Positions 16,701 through 57,416 of a stretch of 64,000 nucleotides of DNA are shown piece by piece; positions within the stretch are counted from its first letter, which is position 1; every line of letters begins with the position of its first letter. Under the pieces are notes generated by a model. The model made no database searches. It saw only the letters and a list, made by a program, of their open reading frames with translations, and had not been told where the DNA came from. The stretch is from Heliocidaris erythrogramma (Eukaryota > Echinodermata > Echinoidea > Camarodonta > Echinometridae), in NCBI GenBank assembly GCA_025617745.1, contig CM046858.1, positions 47,691,197-47,755,196 on the forward strand, given 5' to 3'. A program made the position numbers and the translations under genes.

Positions 16701-19700
16701 CGTCCTAGATCCTCCCAGCGACAATGGGCTGCTTTGTGTTGACAAAGTAGGTGAAGCGAGGTTCACGTTTTAGAGAAGACGGCAAAACCATGTTTGACCC
16801 GTTCTCGATCTGACTAGTGGACGAGGGAGAAGCCAGTGGACAGGTGAGCCGTTCTTGCACAAAGCGCGGTATGCAGCAAACACAAAGCAGTCCATTGTAG
16901 CTGGGAGGATCTAGGAAGGCGTTCAAGTCGACACAAGCTCACTAATGTGATTGTTATTTCATCTTGATTACTGCAACTAACTAAACATACATGTATATTA
17001 AAGATGTGTTTGAAATAATTCAAGTGGGAAAGATGCTATAAAAATTGCTACTATTGTTATCCTCCTAGGGTCACACCTACCCAACATTCCCAGCGGTATA
17101 CCGTCAGCACATCTACTTCATGTCTACACCTCAGGCCAGAGAGGAGTTTGTGATGCATCCATTGAAATACCTGAAGCAGCCATCTCCTAAGCCTGTGGTC
17201 CCTGTCAGGATGGCTATCATTGGACCACCTAAATCTGGAAAGACCTCATGTGAGTAGTTAGAGGTTATTGATGAGGGCATCTTTAAAGTAGATCTGCCAT
17301 ACTTAATAGGTTGTTTGGTTTCAAGTATTGGCATTATCGGGCTGCTAAAGGGTGTCGTTAGTGGCCAGTGACATCTTGCATTATTAGTCATGTGAGTGCG
17401 TAAAATGCATGAACCACCCTAGTTACAGTATGGGGCTGGCCAGCGATGCTCATGAGAAGTGCAATCTATTACTTGACGATGCAAACATTTTAGAAACGGA
17501 GAGTTGGTCCATGCAACAGGATAGGATGTTGAGATGTCAGGACCACAAAAATTTGGAAAGACCGCATGTGGGTAGTCAGGCCATAACAATCTATAAGGAA
17601 AGCAAAAAGTACTTTCTTCTAGTGACAACTTAAAAATAGGAGCCAATATCTTATGCTCTATTTCCCTGACTGTTTTATGGCTCATATGTTACAGTATTGG
17701 CATCAAATTTATGATTACTACAACTTCATTTTCATTCAGTGGCCAACCGCTTTGCAGCAGACTATGGGATGATGCGTCTGTCCATCGGTGAAGCAGTCAG
17801 GTTTGTCTTGACCCAACAACCTAAGACAGAGCTAGCTAAGCTCATCAATGCTCAGATTAGAAAGGGTATCCCGCTCCCAGATGAACTTGCCATTCGAGCT
17901 TTAGAGGTCAATCTACTGGATACAAGGTCATCAACCAGAGGGTGAGTAGAGGGAAGGTTTGGTGGTGGTAGCGATGGATATGTTGATTTTGATAGTCGTA
18001 TTATGAAATTGGTGATGAAAAAGGGGTAATTATAATGATGGTTGCAGTAATGACAGTATGAATATATGGTAAATATATTAGAATGATAGTACTGTTAGTA
18101 ATGATGATGATGATGATGATGATGATGAGGATGGCAGTGACGATGATGAGGATGATTATGATGATGATTATGATTATGATGATGACAGTGGCAGTGACGA
18201 TGACAATGATGATGACGATGAGGATGATGATATTGATGATGATGACGATGATGAGGATGAGTCTAATGATGATTATGATTATGATGATGATGATGATGAT
18301 GGTGATGAAGCTGATAATGGCTACTACTGATGTTGGTGATGGTTCCAGAAATGATCATATCAATATCTTGCTAATGATATTGATTGTGAAGACAATTGTC
18401 CTGCTCATGAGCATGACAATCAACTTTGTTCTCTTTTCATTTTACCCCTACCAGATATGTCCTTGATGGTTACCCAGTGACCAAGCACCAGGTTGACTTG
18501 ATGACTGATCTTGGTATCATTCCAGTTGTTGTTCTTGAACTGGCTGTTGATAGCAGGGAACTCATGGTCAGAGGCATGAAGGACAGGCATTCTTCTGATA
18601 GGTAAGCACATCCAGTCACAACTTCACATGGAACATATCAGCTTCAAAGTTCAAAGTTTTAGTCCCATGGAATCCTCACATCCAAAGGGATGTGTATTTT
18701 ATCAGAAAATTACAAAATACTATATAGAAGAATATATCATAAAGAAATGTGAGAAAATTACAAAGCCCCGACCGGGATTCGAACCCGGGACCCTGGATTA
18801 CATGACCAGTGCTCTACCAACTGAGCTATCCGGGCTCCCGTCGAAGCAAAGTAACAATCTCACATATAGCCCCTCTCTTTCCATCGAGCGTAGGGGGTAC
18901 ATCCATACCAATTCCATGCGTATGCTATATTTGCCCGACTTTAGAGGGAAGACCTGTCTCATTGGTAGGCCATTATATAGCGTACGCATGGAATTGGTAT
19001 GGATGTACCCCCTACGCTCGATGGAAAGAGAGGGGCTATATGTGAGATTGTTACTTTGCTTCGACGGGAGCCCGGATAGCTCAGTTGGTAGAGCACTGGT
19101 CATGTAATCCAGGGTCCCGGGTTCGAATCCCGGTCGGGGCTTTGTAATTTTCTCACATTTCTTTATGATATATTCAATTTACTTCAATCCTATCAATTAT
19201 GATATTTATATAGAAGAAATGCGTTAACATTAAAAGCTGATTATTTTTAAAAATAATTTTTTTTTTCCTCTTCATGCTGTGGGCAAACCCTGCCCAAGGA
19301 TATTAGCGATGAACAATGGGTGATTTTGCCCTCGGTGTTGGTGTTTGGTGTTTGGTGTTAGTGTCTAGTTTGCTGCGCAATCGTGATCTAACACAGACTA
19401 TGAAATGAGAATAAAATCAGTTGGTGTTGGGTTTTGACCTGGTTCCGGTTGCCAGTGTTTATTTTTTGTCAATTATCGTCTGCTGAACCGAGCTCGGCCG
19501 TTGGTGTTTAATTTCGTGTACAAATTCCCATTCACTAACACTATACCCCTAGGGATTAAGAAATATTGATTTCACGGTCAGTGTTGGTGTTGGTGTTGCT
19601 AGCTATGGGAAATTTTGCTGATTAGTCATGAGAACTAAAGACAGTAGGCATTATTCGAAGTGTAATTTCACAGTTGTTAAGAGGTATTATGTTCATATAG

Positions 19701-29402: not shown

Positions 29403-36248
<6,846 letters not shown>

Positions 36249-37960: not shown

Positions 37961-38217
37961 ACAGAGAAAGACAACAACAACAACTCTCTCCCCTCCCCTT
38001 TTCCTTCCCTGTAACAGTGTGATTGTACTGTGGAAGAGGTTCATGTATACATGTAAACCCATTTAGTCTTCAATATTTTAGAAAAGTTTGTAAAGGGTCC
38101 ATTTTGAAGCCTTGAATAGGGAACCTCAAAATATTCTTGAAGCCTTTGTGTAATCTTATGTTGCCTGTGCAGAAATACAATGTCGCATAGAGATCTCATA
38201 TAAGTTGCAAGATACAT

Positions 38218-38712
38218 GTAAACAAATTTGTAGGCATTTTACTCCCAGTGTTAAAGATCGTATGCTCGATCTGTAATGAAAAACACAAGTCAGAAAAAAT
38301 TGGAACCAGCGGGATTCGAACCTGTCATCTACTGCTTGCCGGGCAGCGACTTAACCACCAGGCTATTCTGGTTCACGGCCAAGTCACGATGAACTAGAAT
38401 AAAAAACCCAAGATCCTCTTCTTTCTGACTCATTAATATTCAACGGTCCGCCGTAGACAATGGTTAGTAAACAAAGAAGCTTGATGGGAAGAATTTTAAT
38501 TTGTAAACAAATTTTTAGGCATTTTACTCCCAGTGTTAAAGATCGTATGCAAGCAGTAGATGACAGGTTCGAATCCCGCTGGTTCCAATTTTTTCTGACT
38601 TGTGTTTTTCATTACAGATCGAGCATACAATCTTTAACACTGGGAGTAAAATGCCTAAAAATTTGTTTACAAATTAAAATTCCTCCCATCAAGCTTCTTC
38701 GTTTACTAAAGA
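38218..38712. repeat. Compound inverted repeat with tRNA-like head
   Basis: 38218-38337 is mirrored by 38551-38675, and 38463-38549 is mirrored by 38612-38712. Common tail words are GGCATTTTACTCCCAGTGTT, ATGAAAAACACAAGTCAGAA and GAAGCTTGATGGGA. Looks like two overlapping SINE copies in opposite orientation. Confidence 0.75.
38302..38375 (-). tRNA. tRNA-like SINE head (GGC anticodon position)
   Basis: Acceptor GAACCAG/CTGGTTC perfect, anticodon arm GCTGC-CCGGCAA-GCAGT paired, B box GGTTCGAATCC. But position 33 is C and the T stem has two mismatches, so a functional tRNA is unlikely. The 3' half is repeated on the + strand at about 38551-38592. Confidence 0.45.
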
Positions 38713-41866: not shown

Positions 41867-41925
41867 TGGAATGCATCAGTTATACATTGTATTAAGCTGC
41901 ATACCTGCCCACTGTCCCTGTTTAA

Positions 41926-42350
41926 AGACCTCAGCCTGACCGAATTTTGAAATATACCCTTTATTCATCCACGGGGAGCTATATATTTTCTGAACAAATT
42001 GAAACCAACTTCATGAGATTCCGTTTCCTGTGGAATGAGTAACATCGTCCCGAATGTTGAGCCCCGGTGGTTTGGGCCCCGTCTCTGAGGAACGCTACTT
42101 TGCGGGGGGTGAAAATTTGATGACGACATATCGTGTAGACGCACTTGGAGCTGTACGCATGACATGTCGTCACACGTCTAGCGACCCCCTGCAGTGTTAC
42201 GCCATAGGGAGGGGGCGGACCAAAAAAATTATCTTTTTTATTTTTTATGGATAAACGGAGACGAAAATTTATGAATAACCAGGGTAATTATATTCTTTGT
42301 TTACTAAGCTTTACGTCAATATATGGTTGTTTTGGGTCAGGCTGAGGTCT
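41926..42350 (+). mobile_element. MITE family B (TTAA target), copy 1, 425 bp
   Basis: AGACCTCAGCCTGACC / GGTCAGGCTGAGGTCT ends, TTAA at 41922-41925 and 42351-42354. The interior includes a GC-richer block (CCCGAATGTTGAGCCCCGGT) and GGATAAACGGAGACGAAAAT. TTAA targets suggest a piggyBac-like or Kolobok-like transposase acting in trans. Confidence 0.9.
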
Positions 42351-42769
42351 TTAACAGGGACAATCCTGTTTTTTGGTGAAAGAAAAGGTCACTTCTACCA
42401 AGTGCTGTGTCCCAATTTTCAGCCTCTGCCTTGTCATTTTTCATTTAATTAAATTAAATTTATTCAGTTTTGCATAAAAAATTAGAAATACAAGTATACA
42501 TGTACATGTAGTATACAATTTACATTATGATCACAGAAACATGTTTCCTACAGAACTTACATGTAGAGCTCCAAGATATTAAGCAGAAGCTTGACACCTT
42601 GAGATCCCTTACAATTTAAATACAATCTTACTAAGGGGGGAGTAGAGGGGGTCCTGGTGATGCAGAACAGCAAGGAGAAAGGGAGAAAGGTGGATAGGAA
42701 CTGAAGAGAGAGGGAGAGAAGGAGTCTCGTCTTCTTCAGTTTCTTGGGTTTCAGGGTTGGACCGTCTGG

Positions 42770-44021
42770 GTTTATTGCCACTTGGTTTAATGCCAACTGG
42801 TCTAATAGGCAACTGGTCTAACATCATTCGGTCTAATATCAGTTGGTCTAATAACCAGTTGGTCAAATCATCATTTCGCCCAATTGCTATTTGGTCTAAT
42901 TACAATTTGGTCTATAGTCAATTCGTCTAATAGCCATTTGGTCTAAAACCATTTGGTCCATTATCAATTGGTCTAGTTGCCATTTTGTCTAATCATCAAA
43001 TGGTCTAAACCCATTTGGTCTAATACCAATTTGGTCTACACATCATTTGGTCCATTTATCAGTTAGTCTAACCTCAGTTGGTCTATCATTTGGTCTACAC
43101 CCAATTAGTCTAATAACCATTTGGTCTAATTGTCATTTGGTCTAATAGCCATCTGGTCTAATTACCATTTGGTCTAATCATCGTTTCGTCTAATGACCAA
43201 CTGGGCTAACTTCTTGTTTGCCCTCTTATACGACTACGGACTACATTGCATTGAGGGAAATCATTAAATGGCAGATGCTCATGAATATGAAATAGGGTTA
43301 GGATTGGGGTCAGGTTTCGGGTAAAGATAACTGAAAGATAACGGCCCGTAGGGTCTTCTCAGGGTTTTTTCTCTCACTCCCCCCACACCGCTTTTTCATT
43401 CTCACTTTTTTGGTCCCAACCACTCCCTGGCTACGTGCCTAAAGGGGATCTAGCCCTATACCCCCGCCCCGGTTCCACGGCCCATGCAATGTTTATATGA
43501 CAGGCTAACCTATTTGTATGTATAGTATTAGACCAAATGGATATTAGACCAAGTGAACATTAGACCAAACGGTTATTAGACGAACTGAGAATTAGACCAA
43601 ACGGTGATTAGACGTAATTAGACAAAGTGATGATTAGACGATGTGGGTTTTAGACCAACTGGGTTTAGACAAAATGGCTATTAGACGAAATGATGATTAG
43701 ACCATTTGGTTATTAGACCAACTGGTTTTAGCCGAAATAGATATTGGACCAAGTGAACATTAGACGAAATGATAATTAGACCAAGTGGTGTTTAGACCAA
43801 ATGCGTTTTGACTAAATGTGTATTAGACCAAATGGGTTTTAGACGAATTGGCTAAAGACGAAGTGGTGATTAGACGAAGTGATTATTAGACGAAGTGATT
43901 ATTAGACCAAATGGTTATTAGACTAAATGTTGATTAGACGAATTGGTGATGGACCGTGTTGTTAGACCGAATAAGACCATTTGGCTATTAGACCAGTTGG
44001 CATTAGACCAAGTGGCAATTT
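42770..44021. mobile_element. Minisatellite-armed foldback transposon (TU/Rehavkus-like)
   Basis: Left arm 42770-43212 is a tandem array of ~16-bp units (CATTTGGTCTAATAAC type). Right arm 43525-44021 is the same array in reverse (ATTAGACCAAATG). The 312-bp centre is unrelated. The 9-bp sequence ACCGTCTGG occurs at 42761-42769 and 44022-44030, directly outside the arms (GTTTATTGCCACTTGG / CCAAGTGGCAATTT): a target duplication. Sea urchin TU foldback elements and the Rehavkus group are described with tandem-repeat arms, and Rehavkus with 9-bp duplications. No transposase gene is present. Confidence 0.85.
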
Positions 44022-44735
44022 ACCGTCTGGAACTGTCATACATACATGTAGGCTGCAACCTTACAATCTTCACTTGCTAAATATTGACAGAGAAAATACC
44101 CAGCACATTACTAAAAACTTTCATCCCACTAAAGTTATCTTGAAACAGCTGCTTCGTATGCTCAGTAAATACAGACCTACCGGTATGTGTACAGTAGGCT
44201 TTCCTGTAGGTAATAGTATCCATAAACAAAGTTGAATCAGGGACTTTATTATACTTCCCTGGTTGAATGATCATTTTGTAGTTTATTTGTAGGCCTAGAT
44301 TAACCTATCGCAGACTTTATCAAGACCATAACTATACATACATGTACATGTGCATGTCAGTCATGTCACTGGCACTATCTTTAAAAGGAAACATATTTAT
44401 TTGTGATCATAAAGGCTGTCAGTTGCAGAAACAAAGCATCTTGTAGGATTAAATAAATTATCATATTATTGTAAATGTGTAGGCAGTGGGATGGTTGTAC
44501 CCCTTCCCCCAATGAAGGCAAGAGCTCTGTCACACACTGAAATTAGAGAATGTTTCCAATTCCTGTCAAAGTGGTAGCACCTCTCTCACAAGTTACACTT
44601 CCCTGGTGGATGCATGCTCCTGCGTATACACATGTAGGCCTCCATACATTTCAAAAGAAAGGAATAAAGAAAAGAAAGAAAAGAAAATATATACCGGTAT
44701 CTGTGAGAGAGTAGTCTAGACAAGTATGAAAAGTG

Positions 44736-45012: not shown

Positions 45013-45352
45013 GAAAGTATGGACCAATATGAACTGGTCACAATCCCTAGTGACTGCTTACTGTCTCTGGAAACTTACTTCATAGAGGCAAGAAATCTGC
45101 TGGAAACTGTCTGTGACCCTCATAGCATGAGCTAGATTAAAAGTCATGCTTGGAGAACAAATGTCATCTAATCCAGTTATTCTTGGCGTTGTTTGATTGA
45201 GACGAGTGGAAAAAACTCATTTCCGTTCCTTGAGGCTGGCTATTTTAAGCAGTTTTAATTACCGTAGATCACACTTTATTGTCATAGTCCTCATGTACAG
45301 CACTTGACAAGTAGTCATTGGATGGCATTATGCCTGATTTAGTGTTTATTAA

Positions 45353-45758
45353 AGACCTCAGCCTGACCGAATTTTGAAATATACCCTTTATTCATCCACG
45401 GGGAGCTATATATTTTCTGAACAAATTGAAACCAACTTCATGAGATTCCGTTTCCTGTGGAATGAGTAACATCGTCCCGAATGTTGAGCCCCGGTGGTTT
45501 GGGCCCCGTCTCTGAGGAACGCTACTTTGCGGGGGTGAAAATTTGATGACGACATATCGTGTAGACGCACTTGGAGCTGTACGCATGACATGTCGTCACA
45601 CGTCTAGCGACCCCTGCAGTGTTACGCCATACGACCATTATCTTTTTTATTTTTATGGATAAACGGAGACGAAAATTTATGAATAACCAGGGTAATTATA
45701 TTCTTTGTTTACTAAGCTTTACGTCAATATATGGTTGTTTTGGGTCAGGCTGAGGTCT
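45353..45758 (+). mobile_element. MITE family B, copy 2, 406 bp
   Basis: Same ends and interior as copy 1, TTAA at 45349-45352 and 45759-45762. It lacks about 20 bp (GGGAGGGGGCGGACC and neighbours) present in the other copies. Confidence 0.9.
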
Positions 45759-45916
45759 TTAAGACTGTTAAGATGTGAAAAGTTGTTTTAATTGTACTTA
45801 TTAAATGATAGTTAGAAATCAACCTGTTTTATCTACGGTAATTTACAGTTAATACCATAGGGATACGGTACATGTCAAATTGAAAAAATGCCAAAATATT
45901 TATTTTTTAATTCATG

Positions 45917-48141: not shown

Positions 48142-48370
48142 CAATAGACCTGTTTACTATTTTATGGATGTTTCTTTCCTGGGGACCTAGTAACGAGGTA
48201 TTCCATTAACCTGTTATTAATGAATGAACTACAATACTTGGAATCCAGTTTGCATACATTACTTGTTGCTATGCCTGACAAGCCTCTGGCAAGCTTTCAG
48301 GTTGTCAAGAACAACCTTTGTTTCAAAAGTATGCATAAAATTTGAATCACAATAGTAAACAGGTCTATTG
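48142..48370. mobile_element. MITE family K (CAATAGACCTGTTTACTATT ends)
   Basis: Perfect 20-bp inverted ends at 48142-48161 and 48351-48370. The interior has CTGGCAAGCTTTCAGGTTGT and TTTGCATACATTACTTGTTG. Confidence 0.85.
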
Positions 48371-49041
48371 AAACGCATCTTTTGAGAATGACAACGGCAG
48401 ATGGAAAAGGCTTGAATGGGGTTGTGAAAAGAGAAGGAAATTAAGGTGGAGGAATTGACAATAAGATAGGGAATTGTACATGTATAAGGCTGACTGACAA
48501 TAGGGAGACAGCTCTATTAAAGCAATGATACAATCATGTAGAATAGTGGAAACAGGGAGATTAAAGGAGAGTATTAAAAGATATTACAGAAAAATTAATA
48601 CATTATTTACTTTTCATGTAAAATTAAAATTTTGAAGTCATGAAATGAAGGAATAAATAAACATTCAATTAGGCTTTCATGTTCATTATATCCACTAATA
48701 TATTACATGTACATGTATGTACATGTACAGTAGGTTTGCAGTTATTATGGTGAAGTATACTATTAGTGATTGATTGTAGGGCTGTAGATGTTTATGTGAC
48801 GCACCTTTCTCTGGCGGAAATGGCAAAAAACAATGATGAACCAGGGTCGGTGTGCAGTGAAATGTGAATAAAGAACAATAGAAAGATGGAACTGTATTCA
48901 CCACAATGTATGACTTCACATGCCCAAACCATTTAGATTTCAGTGTGACATGTAATCTGTCAAATATTTGTTGTGCAAGTGCGGTTTGTAGGTGTGTTTG
49001 TATAATTGAAACTTTGCCACTACTAGTAATTGATTTGTATT

Positions 49042-49181
49042 AATAGACCACCTTGGTAATGTATGCAAATTTTATGCATACCTTTCAAACAAAGGTTGTT
49101 CTAGACAACCTGAAAGCTTGCTGGAGGCTTGCCAGGCATAGCAACAAATAATGTATGCAAACTGGATTCCAAGCATTGAGG
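49042..49181. mobile_element. MITE family K, truncated reversed copy
   Basis: AATAGACC end, then reverse complement of the interior of 48142-48370 (ACAACCTGAAAGCTTGC; AACTGGATTCCAAGCATTG). The second terminus is missing. Confidence 0.75.
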
Positions 49182-49961
49182 CTCATTTATAAAAAGCATG
49201 TTCATGGAATAGCTCGTCACTATGTGCATAAATTTGTGTGCATAAATTTTTATACATTACAGAAGTTGCCTATTACTTCAACAAGGAGAGAGGTAATTTC
49301 ATTTGCAAGGATTTGGGATTTGGAAGGGATGATAATAAATATTGTTGAAATCTCTCCAAAATATTGTGGTGGTGTATCTAATGACCCACTTGTTACATGT
49401 ATGTGTTGATCACAGACATGTATCCTTGAAAACAATACCAATAAAAATTGGTGTACAGTACAGTGTACAGTACAGTGTAAACCTTACATCTGTGTAGAAA
49501 ATATATGATCTATAAAACTGGTGCTGAAGATTTGCAGAAATCTGTGAGCTTCAATTTTATAAGTAGTACCTTTTCTACATGTGGCCAATTCCATGATAAA
49601 GTCCAGACATCAGGCCAAACTTTATTTTTGCTCTTTCTGAAATTCAGGTCGAGTTTGGGGGTTTAAATAAATACAGGAATTGTTTTTACAAAGGGGTTTC
49701 ATACTCACCCAAAACAATTTTATTTAATATTGCCCCTTATAGAAGAATCCAAACCATACACAAATTTAGATAGATGGGACTTCACACAGATTTTTTTTTT
49801 AGTCATGGACAGATATATACTGCATATTTTGTGAATTTTTCGATTAGATAATTTGTAGGGCATTTAGTCACACCAATTTAAAAGAAGGTAGGCAATAATA
49901 AGTTGTTGAAAAGGTATAAAAATCTCAAATATGTAGTACTGGACAAACTGTAACGTAAACC

Positions 49962-53789: not shown

Positions 53790-54963
53790 TTTGGCTATTT
53801 GCAGTACAGTAGACAAAATTAACAAAGACTTTGAGTCTTTGTTGAATTAGTGATCCTGTCACGTACATGTAAATGTCGCAGAAGAAAAAAGTCATGTACA
53901 TAGGTCCACACATTCTTGTTGGTTCAAACTGAAGTTCACTAGATTTTATTATCATGTTTCACATTTCACATGAATTTATAGTATTGTTTACAGTAAATAT
54001 TGTATTATAGTGGCTTTACATGTAGTTCAAAATGAAGAAAGAGAGAAAAAAAAATGAATGATTAGTTTGTGCAGGTTTTAGTTATGTGCAACTTACCTGC
54101 TGTGAAGATTGATATCGTTATAAAAATGTAATTAACTGAAGCACTTCATGATTAATTTTTACATGCAGTGAACAACAGACATCTTGAGTACTACATTGTA
54201 CGTTTTGTAAACTTGTATAGAGTTTATATGGTATTACACATGGAGGTAGCAACCGTTTGGCTCTCATTTGGATTCGAGAAGCCTGAATTAAAAAAAAAAA
54301 TCAGGTGTGAAAATGCAGAACTTGGCAAAAATTGGATTTCAGACAATGATTAAATGAATTAATCACCTCAAACCAAAAATTGTGTATGGCTACATAATGT
54401 ATAAAGTGAACCTCAAAACACTGTACCTGGCATTCTATGGATTATCAGAACTTTCCAGAGTATGAAGAAAATAAAGGTTAACTCTTACTGTGCCAGGGGT
54501 TTTAGCGCGCTTCAAAATTTTACCAAAATGTGATCAATGCTTACTTTTCAAATGTCTGCACTTCATTAACCATCTATTGTTTCATATATTGTGTACAAAA
54601 CTTGTAGGAAATTTATTGTAATTTCTTATGATACCAAACATTATTACTTTACCCAACTTTATGCACATGAATTATTGAAAATTACATTTGAGTTTCTTTT
54701 TTGTCCATGAAATTTTGGTTTCTCATTTGTTTACTATAATGTTGAAATAAGGTAATATCTTTTTAAAAATCTGAGATTTCTCTAAAATTTCTCTGAAATT
54801 TTCTATGGTAGCATATAATTATAATCATATATTTAGAATGCTTGATTTATGCTCAAAATTATACATTGACCACCATATACCTTTCCTGTGGTCGAGCAGT
54901 TGGTGAATGATAATGACAAGTCTATCTGTCACATATATGTGCCATCGGCACTGAAAGAGTTAA

Positions 54964-55415
54964 AGACCTCAGCCTGACCGAATTTTGAAATATACCCTTT
55001 ATTCATCCACGGGGAGCTACCGGTATATATTTTCTGAACAAATTGAAACCAACTTCATGAGATTCCGTTTCCTGTGGAATGAGTAACAGCGTCCCGAATG
55101 TTGAGCCCCGGTGGTTTTTCTGACGAGGGCCCCGTCTCTGAGGAACGCTACTTTGCGGGGGGGTGAAAATTTGATGACGACATATCGTGTAGACGCACTC
55201 GGAGCTGTATACATGACATGTCGTCACACGTCTAGCGACCCCCTGCAGTTGCCTCTGTTGTTACGCCATAGGGAGGGGGCGGACCAAAAAAAATTATGTT
55301 TTTTATTTTTTATGGATAAACGGAGACGAAAATTTATGAATACCCAGGGTAATTATATTCTTTGTTTACTAAGCTTTACGTCAATATATGGTTGTTTTGG
55401 GTCAGGCTGAGGTCT
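54964..55415 (+). mobile_element. MITE family B, copy 3, 452 bp
   Basis: Same ends, TTAA at 54960-54963 and 55416-55419, with short insertions (TTCTGACGAGGGC; TTGCCTCTGTTG) relative to copy 1. Confidence 0.9.
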
Positions 55416-56826
55416 TTAAAGAAACTTTATGAGCACGTGGAACCGAATGCGGAGTTGGGTTCAGAGCGGACCCTGTTCCTGGTGAGCGCTCATTGGTGGT
55501 CAACTAGTCTATCCAAGACCCGCTTTTATGTTTATTCAGAGTGTATTTAAAGTTGCAAAATCTCATTATTAGAGAACTAATATTTGAAGTACATACTGTA
55601 TTTTGAATATAATATAGCAACATGCTTGGGCGGAAACATTCAGGAAATTCTTTTCATCGGCGGGGGGGAGGGGGGGCAATACATGTAACAATAGGTCATC
55701 TCCCCTGATGAATAGAATTGTGTAACACATCTCCGCCACTGGCGACATGGAACTCTAATATACAGAACCTTATTTTTTTGTGATTGGTGCCCTTTAATAT
55801 TAAAGGACAATTAACCCCACATGATATTCTAGATGCGGTATTGTCTGCTACGTCTTTCCATGGAGGCTGCCATTTTGTGCATGACACGGATCATTAGGTA
55901 CCATATGCATTGATAATAGCCTACCTTTACAACAGATACGTCGCTTTGTTCTGATTTTATTACGATTGTTATTGGTCATGGGCCTAGATAATTGACGACC
56001 CATGAGTTCTAATAGCCATCCTGTAATGCAGATTCCTCGCTTTGTTTTGGTATTGTTACGATTGTCTCCGTCCTTGACGTCAATTCTCCGTCTCCACGTA
56101 CAGAAAGTATATTTTTATGAACAAATTAAGACCTTTTAAAAAATATATAAAACTAAACTTACATTTCAGAATATGTGACTATATCTAATATATATTTGTC
56201 CTCTAAAAATCAATTACAAGTTAACGATGAAGGAAATATTACTTGGGATGAAAAATATTTTCGTGTACACATAAAGTAATGGCAGCCCCCTTATTATTGC
56301 TAGCAGACAATAACTTGGCTGGAAAATAGTGATTTATATCTATATCCTGTGTTTTTACATGAAATTGCATGTATCAAATAAGAGGCATATACTACACCAT
56401 TCAAAATAAGCTAGTTCATACGCTGAGGTTAATTTCCCTTTAAGCTGTTGGATATGTCTTGATTTGGATGTACTGTCGGTCGATGCACACATTTTCTCTA
56501 GATTCTGACCTGATTTTAATACATACATGTACCTCAGCTTTAATAGCATTCAACATGTTCATTGACTTGGCATGTTTGGATTTAAGAAGCCAGATTAATG
56601 TCACCTTTCTCATTTGCATAGGGCGAGGTTGGAAGTGTGGATTGTTGATACTGACTCATGGTACATGTACATGTAATATTTGTGAAGTTTGGTTCAGGTT
56701 ATCTTTCTAACATGAACAGGTACATTTTGAGGTGTATCTGAGATTAATGTCAATGGCCTGTATTCTGCTTCATGTTTGCATACCGCAATAAAGCCTACAT
56801 CTATCAATCTTTCATACTGGATCAGG

Positions 56827-57416
56827 GCTGGTCATGCATGAAGTGGTCTTGTGGCTTGCTGTCAATGGCCTGAATCTGACTCATATTTGGATTTTAATAT
56901 AAAGCCTATATCTATATGTACATGTGTCTCTTTCAGGTTACATGCAGGTTATCATTCATATGTGATCAGGGCCGGTCATGAAGTGGATTTGCGGCTTCCA
57001 GTCAATGGCCCGAATCTGACTTATGTTTGGATTTATAAAACTTACATGTGTATCTCTTTCATGTTACCTGCAGGTTATCGTTCATATGTGATCAGGGCTG
57101 GTCATGAAGTGGATTTGCGGCTTCCAGTCAATGGCCCGAATCTGACTCATGTTTGGATTTATAAAGCTTACATGTGTATCTCTTTCAGGTTACCTGCAGG
57201 TTATCGTTCATATGTGATCAGGGCCGGTCATGAAGTGGATTTGCGGCTTCCAGTCAATGGCCCGAATCTGACTTATGTTTGGATTTATAAAGCCTACATG
57301 TGTATCTCTTTCAGGTTACCTGCAGGTTATCGTTCATATGTGATCAGGGCCGGTCATGAAGTGGATTTGCGGCTTCCAGTCAATGGCCCGATTCTGACTC
57401 ATATTTGGATTGGGGT
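56827..57416 (+). repeat. 126-bp tandem repeat, ~4.7 copies, open in one frame
   Basis: GTTCATATGTGATCAGGG recurs at 56955, 57081, 57207 and 57333, exactly 126 bp apart. As 126 is divisible by three, one frame stays open for 197 codons as a 42-residue repeat (VIRAGHEVDLRLPVNGP..., ...MCISFRLPAGYRSY). A degenerate further unit lies at about 56740-56826. Each unit holds a TCTCTTTCAGGTTACCTGCAG segment resembling a splice acceptor. I see no known domain and take it as a minisatellite. Confidence 0.85.

Follow-up and report, generated by a model that had tools for sequence, protein, structure and literature searches.

In a 64,000-nucleotide stretch of the genome of the sea urchin Heliocidaris erythrogramma (contig CM046858.1; hereafter the window), two arrays of a 16-bp unit lie head to head (42798-43199 and 43526-43947 by TRF), and the word ACCGTCTGG is present just twice in the window (expected number 0.11), once on either side of them, at 42761-42769 and 44022-44030. 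What kind of element is this, and what might its repetitive arms do? An earlier note, made from the letters alone, took it for a complete foldback transposon with a perfect 9-bp target duplication, matching the TU and Rehavkus elements, with arms that may be evolving by unequal exchange. We compared the locus with its relatives in the same genome and with known transposons.

A multi-copy family with tandem-repeat arms

The structure has what defines a Foldback-type element: long inverted arms of tandem repeats, a short centre and a flanking target duplication (Table 1). With the ends taken from the family, the two arms (443 and 499 bp) and the centre (314 bp) come close to the 445, 497 and 312 bp given in the earlier note. 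Segmentation of the window copy yielded 58 bounded units, 39 of them 16 bp and 15 of them 15 bp long; two unit words are present twice among the 58 listed. No second array of the GGTCTAATNNYCANTT unit was seen elsewhere in the window.

Table 1. Parts of the foldback element and its target-site copies (positions in the window)
Feature	Position	Strand	Description
Whole non-autonomous foldback element	42769..44024	+	1,256 bp, GGTTTATTGCC...GGCAATTTACC; ends by comparison with relatives
L-type arm	42769..43211	+	Array of about 28 units GGTCTAATNNYCANTT, 15-16 bp each
Non-coding centre	43212..43525	+	No stop-to-stop frame of at least 110 aa
Internal-deletion junction	43322..43323	.	Relatives have more sequence at the junction
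R-type arm	43526..44024	-	Inverted array of about 30 units; unit order unlike L arm
Private tandem duplication of one 16-bp unit	43876..43907	-	Exact double here; single in the majority of other copies
Left target-site copy ACCGTCTG	42761..42768	.	8 bp; directly abuts the family's left end GGTTTATTGCC
Right target-site copy	44022..44029	.	First three bases (44022-44024) are also the element's terminal ACC

The genome searched comprises 1.06 Gb in 26 contigs, with the window on contig 6. A whole-genome search with the element gave 154 scored matches, from the 40 candidates scored of 2810 found at a first look. A 22-bp end motif, allowing up to 2 mismatches, occurs at 770 places (376 + 394) and the reversed pattern at none; a 54-bp word of the R end occurs exactly 18 times and a word of the L end 10 times. 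The genome matches and end-motif places thus bear out the earlier view of an inserted foldback element belonging to a multi-copy family with tandem-repeat arms; the family is real, well populated and of a known foldback kind. Where the window copy can be aligned with the other copies, it departs from their majority at 10 of 483 positions in the right arm and 13 of 439 in the left. Because these differences are so few, a fairly young insertion, which the earlier note had also proposed, would be a reasonable reading. No empty site was present among 46 genome matches of the joined flanks, the window's own locus being matched only as two halves. Pattern scans for relatives in viral and prokaryote collections gave 0 matches, and looser scans of these gave 4 isolated matches without arrays, which we took as chance. 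In the literature, a search on the letters of the unit found nothing related by title among the matches listed.

A dispersed repeat of about 160 bp (42564-42724 of the window), with many genome copies up to 94% identical, stops 36 bp short of the element's left target-site copy. At several composite loci (L039-L044, L046 and L048), R- and L-type arms of the family stand in tandem; in the three examined closely (L041, L043 and L048) the arms sit within another array, with unit CCACAAATGTAAAAAT. Long sequence is common to L041 and six of the seven others, and none was found between L041 and L046. At L015, three L-type ends follow one another in tandem at intervals of about 2.15 kb, with GGCCGATC in front of each, along with one R-type end; this locus is a tandem amplification of part of an element.

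Target duplication and the missing internal segment

How long is the target duplication? Relatives with other flanks have GGTTTATTGCCACTTGG at one end and GGTAAATTGCCACTTGG at the other, read inward. Therefore, the G at 42769 and the ACC at 44022-44024 are element sequence, and the ninth matching base of the flanking word belongs to the element on the left, where it is this G, and to the flank on the right. Between 16-bp border zones, a shared word of at least 9 bp arises in 0.08% of 20,000 random site pairs in the window; with the family ends, only GTCTG (5 bp) agrees in the window copy at register 0. We compared the flanks of 19 end pairs, namely those with both ends readable by eye (loci without one recognisable end were left out). 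These pairs represent 18 independent sites, because L053 and L055 have common flanks, and they include C7, the only one of nine further comparisons tried for which two ends were obtained. Eight of the 19 agree over 8 bp with at most one mismatch, three of them exactly (L013, L017 and L049), whereas shuffled pairing gives 0.43 such pairs on average and 4 at most, and a 9-bp duplication fits a single pair (L028, exact). The remaining pairs are off by a one-base shift or short indels (L018 and L064), match only when shifted (L057), agree over 5 bp (the window copy and L062) or show no duplication (L014, L051, L053, L055 and C7).

The target duplication of the family is 8 bp. A 7-bp duplication, entertained from the symmetry of the ends, was dropped since relatives show GG/ACC ends. 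Identical 9-mers do flank the element, as the earlier note observed, but as a target duplication the 9 bp do not hold, and the match in the window is best read as the 8-bp ACCGTCTG combined with a 3-bp loss at the right junction; in the simplest history, ACCACC would have collapsed to ACC. The pairs without a duplication may possibly reflect recombination between copies, a process proposed for chimeric Galileo copies (PMC3573991). A flanking repeat sized from one copy can thus mislead when flank and element end agree by chance.

The element is not complete, contrary to the earlier note: an internal segment is missing and no long frame is present (Table 1). Elsewhere in the genome, matches to the centre cover either one half or the other. 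The point 43322/43323 is crossed by none of the 45 other centre matches listed; for eight places both halves are listed, with 86-699 bp between them. The window copy either stems from an internally deleted form or turned into one; it is a shortened derivative without transposase. In L013, L014 and part of L031, the extra internal sequence looks non-coding.

Where, then, might a transposase be encoded? None came to light near the known copies. Among 31 MULE domains in the genome, the nearest lies 123 kb from 140 known element positions, and among 76 hAT dimerisation domains the nearest lies 31 kb from them; because these positions cover only part of the family's copies, an autonomous copy may have been missed. 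For a 6.2-kb end pair on C2, the 5.0 kb of interior examined contain no frame longer than 115 aa, and four frames from the composite loci had no Pfam match. Two long MULE frames of the genome are Rehavkus-like (L069, 861 aa, with a PHD finger) and Phantom-like (L072, 656 aa, with PHD and FLYWCH) in their domains; no arms of the window family were found within the 7.5-8 kb examined at these loci.

Could the flanking repeat instead stem from a 5-bp stagger, or from an end-specific 3-bp deletion at insertion, rather than from later slippage? With the family ends only the five bases GTCTG agree in the window copy, and L062/L063 show a 5-bp agreement as well (CATCA) that overlaps the ACC end in a similar way. 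Most pairs having a duplication nevertheless have 8 bp, and both the step from ACCACC to ACC and the C run at L062 are ordinary slippage sites; we consider such an origin unlikely. More improbable is that the element belongs to Rehavkus and made a genuine 9-bp target duplication, the ends of the window copy being slightly shortened. Rehavkus elements are described with 9-bp duplications, a PHD-finger transposase and insect and annelid hosts (PMC6446971, PMC10218199) and with minisatellites at or near the termini (PMC6446971), the satellite repeat of Rehavkus-1_TC measuring 164 bp (PMC10218199). Terminal minisatellite or satellite repeats are thus found in both, and the identical flanking 9-mers, the exact 9-bp duplication of L028 and the PHD-finger MULE genes of the genome (L069 and L072) also speak for this origin. 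Against it, the pairs fit 8 bp far more often than 9 bp, differently flanked relatives likewise end in the G of 42769 and the ACC of 44022-44024, and no MULE domain comes closer than the distance given above to the known copies. Membership in Rehavkus, one half of the match drawn in the earlier note, is not supported. Finally, the locus might be no transposon at all, a local minisatellite having been duplicated in inverted orientation with a 9-bp match by chance. The modest likeness of the inner arm parts (about 74%, not collinear) would suit such an origin, but both arms and their ends recur at many unrelated places, each with its own flanks; these genome copies already refute it, and we give it practically no weight.

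Unit order and core conservation in the arms

Do the arms evolve by unequal exchange? To the window R arm, 33 right arms of other copies align at 88.7-98.0%, and to the window L arm 20 left arms align at 89.1-96.3%, all identities being taken over aligned columns with gaps uncounted. From these alignments we dropped cross-arm rows (5 of R and 11 of L) and 3 duplicates, and we excluded L005-L012, four loci also present as longer stretches (L027, L029, L030 and L032), L068, and stretches under 1 kb. These 33 R and 20 L arms have their units in the order of the window arms, so unequal exchange is not constantly reshuffling the units. Within the window copy, a unit resembles its neighbours no more than it resembles other units (p above 0.1 at every lag from 1 to 10); on this and the shared order we rejected unequal exchange as the main driver. 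The window copy nevertheless has one private unit duplication, a few small R-arm deletions and one unit fewer in the L arm, and whole-unit gains and losses are present in other copies too. Conversion over whole arms is unsupported as well, because the L and R arms agree in unit order no more than shuffled arms do (p 0.10, or 0.29 when the outer units are left out). The two arms match closely only over about the outer 45 bp, and their inner parts are about 74% alike and not collinear. The arms are ordered rows of units, inherited with slow turnover.

Variation along the unit is uneven. Among the 39 16-bp units, positions 1, 9, 10, 11 and 14 vary freely, which agrees with the wide variation remarked on in the earlier note, whereas positions 2, 4, 6 and 16 are invariant. 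Conservation along these units has an sd of 0.185, against at most 0.089 in 1000 uniform-mutation simulations. For 12 of the 15 units of 15 bp, the absent base can be placed in the linker (52% on average in simulations), a weak result. Variation among copies is lower at cores than at linkers in both arms (R arm, 3.2 versus 5.8%, p 1.5e-6; L arm, 4.6 versus 8.7%, p 3e-4), and the difference exceeds all 15 shifted-label controls in each arm.

The family has copies enough for selection to be read position by position. We separated private variants (one copy) from shared variants (at least three copies), with the window copy excluded and both arms pooled. The core/linker ratio per site was 0.79 for private and 0.35 for shared variants: private variants are about a fifth rarer at cores than at linkers, and shared ones about threefold rarer (odds ratio 2.24, p 0.0017). 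This contrast was also found with a threshold of two copies (odds ratio 1.62, p 0.006), when the eight co-amplified composite copies were left out (3.87, p 0.006) and when CpG sites were removed (2.54, p 0.0005). By arm, L alone gave p 0.004 and R alone p 0.11. With shifted labels, odds ratios ranged from 0.60 to 1.75, the highest being that of shift 1 (p 0.028), which overlaps the true register. The scarcity at cores of shared variants, and much less of private ones, suggests selection for binding sites, with the unit cores as candidate sites needed for movement. The protein that would bind them is presumably the transposase.

Alternatively, core conservation could be a by-product of mutational context or array homogenisation, the arms being just carried-along repeats. 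Private variants are indeed slightly rarer at cores, copies do gain and lose whole units, and the R arm on its own gives a p value above 0.1. Homogenisation, however, would be expected at all positions, yet positions 9-11 vary freely, and adjacent units show no excess likeness at any of the ten lags; moreover, the depletion at cores is much stronger for shared than for private variants, with or without CpG sites. We regard a by-product as rather unlikely. Selection on candidate binding sites would mean that unit cores all along the arms, beyond the outermost ends, matter for movement, as the contrast between shared and private variants indicates, and this bears on why foldback transposons have such long repetitive arms.

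Known foldback transposons and a proposed mechanism

Which known elements does the family resemble? The sea urchin TU elements of Liebermann et al. (1983) reportedly have long inverted arms with outer short tandem repeats of about 15 bp, and are said to make an 8-bp target duplication; they are not known to have coding capacity. By this description, TU and the window element are alike in their long arms with short tandem repeats and in having no known coding capacity, and the 8-bp duplication is likewise found here, within one mismatch, in eight of 19 pairs. The TU half of the match drawn in the earlier note therefore fits in structure. The best label is that of a TU/Foldback-type non-autonomous element, probably powered by a MULE.

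Target duplications of MULEs are given as 8-11 bp (PMC6446971, PMC3169594), a range that includes the 8 bp of the window family. Tm1, a Mutator/Foldback family of root-knot nematodes, has arms of 13-15-bp tandem units in varying number, mostly 9-bp duplications and a known copy encoding a Phantom-type MULE (PMC3169594). It resembles the window family in its tandem-unit arms, its mostly non-autonomous copies and the short end motifs outside the array; it differs in duplication length, in its unit, in its asymmetric 7-bp end motifs and in its known encoding copy, no such copy having been found here. In Galileo of Drosophila, the arm repeats contain footprinted transposase sites (PMC3688188). Long, internally repetitive arms and two-arm deletion derivatives are common to Galileo and the window family (PMC3688188, PMC3573991), and chimeric Galileo copies without matching duplications (PMC3573991) recall the five of 19 pairs here. 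Unlike the window family, Galileo has a P-type transposase and a 7-bp duplication, and the tandem repeats of about 210 bp in the F group of D. mojavensis are unlike the window unit (PMC3688188, PMC3573991). The Tetris paper cites a sea urchin foldback element (PMC4079207); other literature behind the comparison is PMC13359780, PMC4438587, PMC1634758 and PMC4455052.

The same genome holds a cousin MULE (G000:C12:20959225-20969485; 10,261 bp) with the 9-bp duplication GAATAGAGG, long inverted arms carrying a minisatellite whose sub-units measure 16 and 25-27 bp, and a 385-aa frame that contains a MULE domain. One sub-unit, TTCGGTCTATAGAACC, resembles the window unit beyond permutations (p 0.0037), and the second has no similarity to it (p 0.20). 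The cousin and the window element are alike in genome, long inverted arms and minisatellite, but the cousin has a 9-bp duplication, other ends and at least 300 bp of arm outside the array. Because ends and duplication differ, it was rejected as the partner itself. Together with Tm1, it makes a MULE the likeliest driver of the window family.

What could the mechanism of transposition be? We favour, with a probability of about 0.68, a non-autonomous TU/Foldback transposon insertion, probably driven by a Mutator-like transposase, with arms that serve as ordered binding sites and an 8-bp stagger at the target; the superfamily of the transposase is one that we infer. A transposase made elsewhere would recognise the short end GGTWWATTGCC and would also grip an ordered row of about 28-30 sites per arm, with core GTCTA(A)..CA..T and a spacing of 15-16 bp. 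It would pair L-type and R-type ends and move the element, and insertion by an 8-bp staggered cut would give ACCGTCTG at the window locus. Many sites per arm may provide specificity or avidity; linkers would drift, and selection during copying would keep the cores. The window copy has changes of its own, an extra unit and small deletions, which would include the 3 bp at the right junction. The average spacing of the sites, 15.7 bp, corresponds to 1.50 helical turns at 10.5 bp per turn. More tentatively, the arms might, in evolutionary terms, be not minisatellites but two distinct ordered rows of about 28-30 individually inherited, core-selected putative protein-binding sites, with one row for each end. 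If so, successive transposase subunits would, at this spacing, alternate faces and build an asymmetric multi-subunit complex able to distinguish the left end from the right, an idea that we consider possible though doubtful.

The window contains further repeats. Three near-identical copies of 414-460 bp with TTAA at both ends (41922-42354, 45349-45762 and 54960-55419) have inverted ends AAGACCTCAGCCTGACC and resemble a piggyBac-type MITE. Other inverted-repeat elements, with arms of 76-163 bp that are 87-100% complementary, lie at 1-1111, 34501-34789, 38217-38671 and 48185-49225. At 56919-57411, a 126-bp unit is repeated four times in tandem within one 200-aa open frame, whose Pfam matches are only weak and implausible. 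The inverted repeat at 18730-19175 consists of two 201-bp arms, one base different and 44 bp apart, each with a tRNA-Thr (TGT) gene, head to head (ARAGORN). The frame at 20730-21245 matches adenylate kinase 9.
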